From assembly GCA_902574345.1 (NCBI GenBank), contig CACGNF010000006.1, positions 1 to 44,984 of the forward strand: a stretch of 44,984 nucleotides of DNA, given 5' to 3'. Positions 6,101-7,535 of this stretch are shown here, piece after piece. The notes under the pieces were generated by a model. That model searched no databases. It was not told the origin of the DNA and was given only the letters and a program-made list of their open reading frames with translations. Every line of letters begins with the position of its first letter. Positions within the stretch are counted from its first letter, which is position 1. A program made the position numbers and the translations under genes. This stretch comes from an uncultured Pelagibacteraceae bacterium. GTDB taxonomy: Bacteria; Pseudomonadota; Alphaproteobacteria; Pelagibacterales; Pelagibacteraceae.

Positions 6101-6588
6101 AAGACGATCTAAAAGAATCAAATATAGCTGCAACATTACTAAAAATACAAGAGAGAAAAACTGCAAAAGGCAACCCCTATGCAGTTTTAAAGCTTACTGA
6201 TTTATCGAGCGTTTTTGAGTTGTTTATTTTTTCAGACACTTTGGAATTAAATCGAGCAATTTTAAAAGAGGGTAATTCATTTATTTTGACTTTATTTAAA
6301 TCCTCATCAGACTCAGAAAATAGATTTAAAAGATTAAATGTTCAAAAAATTGTATCTTTAAAGGATTTATTAAACAGACCAATTCAAGAAGTAACATTTA
6401 ATTTAAAATCCACAAAAGAACTGGATGAAATATCAAGATATTTGCCTCAACACGGAAACACATTGATAAAGATTAATATTAGTGACAATAAAAATGATTT
6501 AAAGTTTCACTTAAAAAACAAGAGAAATATTGACAGAAAAACAATAAATATTTTAAGAAATAAGGAAATTTCATCAATAATTGGATAA
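3172..6588 (+). CDS. dnaE: DNA polymerase III alpha subunit
   Basis: PHP domain N-terminus, VGPGRGSGAGSLVAWCL, PDFDIDFCEEKRD, ALYRPGPM, GVIIYQEQVMQIA; 1138 aa. Confidence 0.97.
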   Translation: MAESQIQNFNHLKIHSQFSICEGAIKIDDLKEISKEKKIKSLALCDTSNLCGALEFAEKISKVGTQPIIGTQINFKLDETIGLLPLFALNEIGYKRIIELSSLSYLNNDGTSDPHLNFQELLENNEGVAILSGTINGLVGQLFNKGKFSEIEKLYSKLKQKYGDKFYIEIQRHGDQNEISFEKFNLSRSLNLKIPIIATNEVFYSVKDMYEAHDALICIKNKTYVNEKNRIKYSNQHYLKDNSEMSELFSDLPEALENNYNFPYRCNFRPHFSKPILPDISSDKGGNADEILKKNSLDGLKEKFKNIFNIKDEDLSKNEKFLLYKDRLDHELDIIVQMKYSSYFLIVSDYIIWAKKNDIPVGPGRGSGAGSLVAWCLLITDVDPIKFNLIFERFLNPDRISMPDFDIDFCEEKRDQVFEYLTEKYKDSVAHIITFGKLKARMVIRDVGRVLGLSYGFVDSISKMIPFDPSRPQNLTECIAGEPRLQKIIKDDPRVKKLTELSLKLEGLNRNVATHAAGVVIADRKLQDVVPLYKDTTADLLLPSTQFDMYSAEDAGLIKFDFLGLKTLTVINNTQNLIKKKEKDFNIENINYEDKKVFEMLSSGNTVGLFQIESSGMREALTHMKPNHIEDIIALVALYRPGPMSNIPTYNDCKHGKQEPDYLHPLLEDILKPTYGVIIYQEQVMQIAQKLSGFTAGQADILRRAMGKKKRSELEKQKQNFIAGAVKNGISKEVAAGIFLKIEPFAEYGFNKSHAAAYAIISYQTAYLKTYYPSEFIAASMTMDISNQNKLSEFYEELKRLNIEIVRPDINQCFADFRTENGKFYYALGGIKAVGYDAVSNIVQERIKKGPFKSIKDFLNRVNPKDINKLQLEGLVKAGAFDNLNINRQSLFNSIPNFITKSKSIFENKSANQIDLFGENANEEDEITTNIDDWKFEERLSKEFEAVGFFISDHPLSQFKDIFEDYNIYDYQKFNNQDDLKESNIAATLLKIQERKTAKGNPYAVLKLTDLSSVFELFIFSDTLELNRAILKEGNSFILTLFKSSSDSENRFKRLNVQKIVSLKDLLNRPIQEVTFNLKSTKELDEISRYLPQHGNTLIKINISDNKNDLKFHLKNKRNIDRKTINILRNKEISSIIG

Positions 6589-6595
6589 TTAAGAC

Positions 6596-6624
6596 TTGTC
6601 TAATTCAAAAATTCTTTGTAAATA
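6596..6624 (+). promoter_or_regulatory. Possible rpsB promoter (TTGTCT-N17-TAAATA)
   Basis: -35-like TTGTCT at 6596-6601 and -10-like TAAATA at 6619-6624; would put the start just upstream of the leader structure. Weak consensus in an AT-rich background. Confidence 0.3.
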
Positions 6625-6644
6625 ATCTCCAATTTTAAATTAAA

Positions 6645-6719
6645 ACGCACACAGTTTATTGGTTTTAAACCTCCGGTCCTTAATTGGAAATAACTGTGGT
6701 GGCTTAACCGGGAAAAAAT
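6645..6719 (+). promoter_or_regulatory. Candidate structured 5' leader of rpsB (ribosomal protein S2 mRNA)
   Basis: CACAGTT (6650-6656) pairs with AACTGTG (6692-6698); inner hairpin GGTT/AACC (6661-6664/6668-6671); loop CCGGT (6673-6677) complementary to ACCGG (6707-6711) next to the ribosome-binding region, i.e. pseudoknot-compatible. Unusually G/C-rich for an IGR here. Confidence 0.6.
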
Positions 6720-7535
6720 ATGAAGATACCAAACGTTACTATTCAAGAACTATTAGAAGCAGGAGTTCATCTTGGTCACAAGACTTTAAGATGGAATCCT
6801 AAAATGAAGAAATATATATTTGGAAAAAGAGATAGTATTCACATTATCGACCTTACCCAAACTTTAGAATTAACTAAAATTGCTTTAGAAAAAGTTTATG
6901 AGACAATTTCAAACAATGGAAAAATCTTGTTTGTATCAACTAAAAAACAAGCTTCCGAAGCAATCGCAGAGGTAGCGAAAGAAACAGACCAATATTTCGT
7001 AAATTATAGATGGTTAGGTGGAATGCTCACAAATTGGGGCACCATTTCAAATTCAATTAAAAAATTGAAAAAATTAGAGACAGATTTAGTTGCTGAGAAT
7101 AGAGGATTTACAAAAAAAGAGCTTTTAAAAATGAGTGTAAAAAAAGATAAATTACAAAGATCGCTCGGGGGAATAGCTGAAATGAAAAAAATTCCTGATT
7201 TAGTATTTATTATTGATACAAATTACGAGTCACTTGCAATTCAAGAGTCAGTAAAATTAGGAATTCCAATTATTGCAATATTAGATAGCAACTCAAATCC
7301 TGATGGAATTGATTTTCCAATACCTGGCAATGATGATGCTCGAAGATCAATAGATCTTTATTGTAATCTTATTAAAGAAACAATAGTAGCTGCTAAAAAA
7401 GCTGCACCAGTTATTGAAACAAAGAAAGATACTGAAAAAAAAGAAAAAGTTGATAAATCTAAAACTATTGCAGAAACAGACCGAGAAAAACTGGAAAAAA
7501 GATTCTCTAAAAAAAAGCCAGAAAAATTAAATTAA
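6720..7535 (+). CDS. rpsB: 30S ribosomal protein S2
   Basis: [38 protein letters not shown]; Lys-rich C-terminal tail. Confidence 0.97.

Follow-up and report, generated by a model that had tools for sequence, protein, structure and literature searches.

What occupies the gap between dnaE and rpsB in this SAR11 genome, and could it regulate the gene that follows? The window, by which we mean the whole stretch of 44,984 nucleotides analyzed here, had been read from its letters as carrying in this gap a pseudoknotted RNA leader that hides or exposes the ribosome-binding region of rpsB. We found that the leader upstream of rpsB is the published rpsB motif, an element already known and not a new one. 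We are highly confident that it constitutes the cis-acting leader RNA of the rpsB-tsf mRNA in Pelagibacteraceae (SAR11).

Architecture of the dnaE-rpsB gap

As read from the sequence, the stop codon of dnaE ends at 6588 and the ATG of rpsB begins at 6720, leaving a gap from 6589 to 6719. The downstream open reading frame contains an in-frame match to TIGR01011 (rpsB_bact, 6735-7400) that scores above the cut-off. Rereading the sequence confirmed to the base the elements that the original prediction had named upstream of rpsB. The long stem that it proposed, CACAGTT/AACTGTG with ATT/AAT, is present as well, but runs three pairs further than claimed. The features are as follows.

6646..6711, plus strand: rpsB motif (S2 leader RNA) in its full conserved extent; from the RF01815 match, the SAR11 model and its presence in 90/90 leaders
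6646..6656, plus strand: P1 5' strand, CGC-A-CACAGTT with bulged A6649; from sequence and pair changes in SAR11
6692..6701, plus strand: P1 3' strand, AACTGTGGTG; from sequence and pair changes in SAR11
6661..6671, plus strand: P2 hairpin, GGTT-TTA-AACC, 4 pairs; from sequence and replaced pairings in relatives
6678..6687 (6678-6679/6686-6687), plus strand: P3, two C-G pairs CC/GG, C6678-G6687 and C6679-G6686
6673..6677, plus strand: pseudoknot 5' arm CCGGT, in J2-3; invariant in SAR11 and covarying across Pseudomonadota
6707..6711, plus strand: pseudoknot 3' arm ACCGG, 8 nt upstream of the start codon
6720..7535, plus strand: rpsB (271-aa ribosomal protein S2), heading rpsB-tsf; from the ORF list and TIGR01011

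The core of P1 is read from the sequence as CACAGTT at 6650-6656 with AACTGTG at 6692-6698. Outside the bulged A6649 the Rfam alignment adds three further pairs (C6646-G6701, G6647-U6700 and C6648-G6699), bringing P1 to a total of 10 pairs. ATT at 6658-6660 and AAT at 6689-6691 extend the stem past a bulged T6657, an extension that is not constant among relatives.

The folding energy of the 147-nt region was not unusual, and energy was therefore not used as support; the evidence for the leader is its conservation. In the minimum free energy structure CCGGU lies in a local hairpin and not in the pseudoknot. This hairpin, UCCGGU/AUUGGA (6672-6688 of the window), ties up the 5' arm of the pseudoknot. 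Comparison by eye indicated that relatives do not preserve it, and it was rejected as a conserved element and regarded as a competitor in the window sequence only.

Identity with the published rpsB motif

The rpsB motif was first described from the 129-bp dnaE-rpsB gap of 'Candidatus Pelagibacter ubique' HTCC1062 and was reported in most Alphaproteobacteria and in marine metagenomes (Meyer et al. 2009, PMC2704228). In the published anatomy a long P1 leads into a three-stem junction that bears P2 and P3, both short, and J2-3 forms a pseudoknot with the strand that continues P1 on its 3' side, with five pairs in most groups; in P. ubique P2 has three pairs and P3 two (PMC2704228). The window shows the same arrangement, with a leader position immediately upstream of rpsB (element end at 6711, ATG at 6720), a long covarying P1, P2 and P3 that are short and variable, and a J2-3 pseudoknot. 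The flanking genes, the three stems, the five-pair pseudoknot and the two-pair P3 are all as in P. ubique. The P2 of the window can form four pairs instead of three, and there is no other substantive difference. The suspicion that this leader might match a published Pelagibacter motif was thus well founded, and the pseudoknot, offered at the time as an inference, had already been described by Meyer et al. (2009, PMC2704228).

The search of Rfam that had been suggested as a check returned RF01815 (rpsB) at 6646-6729, over the full length of the model (1-132), with 34.5 bits and an E-value of 3.8e-5, a score that does not reach the gathering cut-off of 40 bits. Two other SAR11 leaders scored 36.1 and 34.8 bits, and leaders from other families of the class (L103 and L092) scored 49.3 and 46.5 bits. 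The model and the window leader have in common the P1 stem and the sequence CUCCGGU ... UUAACCGG, whereas P2 and P3 are far longer in the model.

Conservation and compensatory changes within SAR11

We took advantage of rpsB upstream regions from 90 genomes, namely the one that contains the window and 89 others from its family. The element occurs in every one of the 90, and AACCG[GA] is located 5-12 nt upstream of the ATG. Removal of near-duplicates left an alignment of 57 sequences, in which 6 of the 10 P1 pairs show changes on both sides. Such changes amounted to 47 cells compared with 13.6 in shuffles, the covariation score was reached by none of 500 shuffles, and the signal was lost when partners were slid. 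The compensatory changes expected of the long stem among SAR11 relatives were therefore found. P2 also remains paired in relatives with other sequences (AGGGC/GCCCT, GGGTA/TACCC, GGCT/AGCC and GGTCA/TGACC), and P3 consists of exactly two CC/GG pairs in 49 of the 90 leaders, reaching up to 5 pairs in others.

No covariation of the pseudoknot was detected within SAR11, CCGGT/ACCGG being identical in 57/57 aligned sequences, so the SAR11 sequences by themselves speak neither for nor against this pairing. One near-duplicate outside the 57 (L083) has ACCGA in place of ACCGG.

A model (R1) built from the 57 sequences, the window sequence among them, found a single place in the genome, the rpsB leader, with 81.3 bits; no second copy was found in this genome, which is ~68% complete. 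A search for phage copies of the element likewise found none. Elsewhere, the SAR11-only model matched at the start of rpsB in many other Alphaproteobacteria and gave a weak match in E. coli.

Pseudoknot covariation across Pseudomonadota

In leaders from the class and the phylum, the 3' arm was anchored on the P1 sequence GGNGG followed by AAC, and the 5' arm was the best-pairing candidate ending in GT, the same rule being applied to both sides of the comparison. Among the 82 leaders compared, with failed anchors left out (38/118) and kinship uncorrected, the three variable pseudoknot positions were fully paired in 88% of cases with a leader's own arms versus 18% with arms from leaders having a different 3' arm. 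CCGGT/ACCGG occurs in 48 leaders, five of them SAR11. Alternative pairings include CGGGT or TGGGT/ACCCG (7 leaders), GGGGT/ACCCC (4 leaders), ATTGT or GTTGT/ACAAT (4 leaders) and CTGGT/ACCAG (2 leaders), and TCGGT/ACCGA and TGGGT/ACCCA were also encountered in the phylum. Judging from these aligned arms, the pseudoknot clearly covaries across Pseudomonadota. Hence the pairing of CCGGT with ACCGG, invariant in the SAR11 alignment, did show the expected covariation at the scale of the phylum. Overall, the predicted pseudoknotted rpsB leader proved real, being present in every SAR11 leader sampled, with compensatory changes in P1 and a pseudoknot that covaries beyond SAR11.

The most diverged version of the pseudoknot that we found, ATTGT or GTTGT with ACAAT, belongs to genera of one family of the same phylum and another class (f94; L130, L131, L133, L134, L142 and L146). 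In a separate case (L109), a motif-like stretch, GCAGAGGTTTAACTGGA, lies ~80 nt upstream of the rpsB start codon, much farther than in other leaders.

Relation to the E. coli S2 operator

The S2 operator of E. coli, t44/tff, resembles the window leader in place and anatomy. Against the t44 model (RF00127) the E. coli leader reaches 83.5 bits, and it has a pseudoknot, GGGGT/ACCCC, in the corresponding places. It differs from the window in the sequence of this pseudoknot and in having a standalone Shine-Dalgarno (SD) sequence (AGAGG) farther downstream. RF00127 and RF01815 are separate Rfam families, with no clan for either. In E. coli, excess S2 represses rpsB-tsf translation with the help of S1, and a small deletion of a conserved bulge may abolish this repression; the ribosome-binding site is reported to lie outside the S2 operator, and the mechanism of repression was called unclear in this 2024 review (PMC10931766).

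Spacing and Shine-Dalgarno sequences at the rpsB start

The spacer between the pseudoknot and the ATG measures 5-12 nt (median 8) in the 90 SAR11 leaders versus about 16 nt in 78 leaders from elsewhere in Pseudomonadota. Within this spacer 6/90 SAR11 leaders have an SD of at least 4 nt, versus 73/78 of the others, and counting the pseudoknot arm adds a GGAG in 5 more of the 90. The window itself has only a 3-nt GGA, which overlaps the last G of the pseudoknot 3' arm, and on sequence grounds its 'GGGA' is not convincing as an SD. Among window ORFs (for example those at 6720, 7536 and 8388), an SD of at least 4 nt is found upstream of 6/42, against an upstream background of 26%. The anti-SD CCTCC is kept in relatives, probably at the 3' end of 16S rRNA. 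From these counts, absence of the SD looks general in this lineage.

What the leader may do in SAR11

The regulatory part of the original prediction, in which the fold alternately hides and exposes GGGA as an SD next to the pseudoknot, fared less well than the fold itself and appears unlikely. The last G of the 3' arm does overlap GGA at good SD spacing, the arm ending 8 nt before the AUG, and family relatives retain the anti-SD. Against this, the match is of 3 nt at most, 84/90 SAR11 leaders have no SD of at least 4 nt there, leaders elsewhere in the phylum have their SD downstream of the pseudoknot, and the E. coli ribosome-binding site is reported to be outside the operator (PMC10931766). 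The rarity of SD motifs both in SAR11 spacers and before window ORFs makes masking of GGGA a weak idea.

Somewhat less probable still is a constitutive 5' structure that serves mRNA stability or S1-dependent initiation, with no regulation by S2 in SAR11. The near invariance of the pseudoknot sequence in SAR11 and the streamlining of SAR11 genomes would be compatible with such a role; on the other hand, 90/90 leaders retain the element in genomes with little intergenic DNA, and it is shared with the leader that S2 acts upon in E. coli. That the element is a separate small RNA is very improbable, even though Rfam types both RF01815 and t44 as 'sRNA' and the E. coli annotation lists tff/T44 (L212:213-348), which overlaps the rpsB leader, as a putative small RNA. 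A scan of 6400-6900 for promoters and terminators found no terminator and no promoter better than chance. Only 8 nt separate the element from the start codon, and in the genomes surveyed it sits immediately 5' of rpsB. That the pairings arose by chance in an AT-rich gap, with which the unremarkable folding energy (z = -0.55) would agree, is ruled out by conservation and covariation and has a negligible probability.

We infer instead that S2 represses its own synthesis in SAR11 as it does in E. coli, and that it would do so by a steric block of the start region and not by SD masking. P1 with its bulged A carries the junction of the short P2 and P3 hairpins, and CCGGU in the P2-P3 junction pairs with ACCGG just 3' of P1 to form a compact pseudoknot ending 8 nt before the AUG. 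S2 in excess over 30S subunits would most likely bind or stabilize this fold, which would stop ribosome loading at the rpsB start and lower the output of S2 and of the co-encoded EF-Ts. A block of the start region seems to fit the geometry better than masking of GGGA, yet the reported position of the E. coli ribosome-binding site outside the operator means that such a block is not a given. We propose only tentatively, as a possibility with less than even chances, that SAR11 has compacted the leader and lost the standalone SD, so that the S2-bound pseudoknot would block the start-codon region and give an SD-independent S2 control unlike that of E. coli.

SAR11 bacteria rank among the most abundant in the ocean. 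Our analysis confirms a published regulatory RNA from an independent set of genomes, in which it probably balances S2 and EF-Ts in SAR11, and phylum-wide covariation is now given for the pseudoknot of the rpsB motif. The compact, SD-less SAR11 form is a modest addition that may offer a small natural construct for the study of how S2 blocks initiation.
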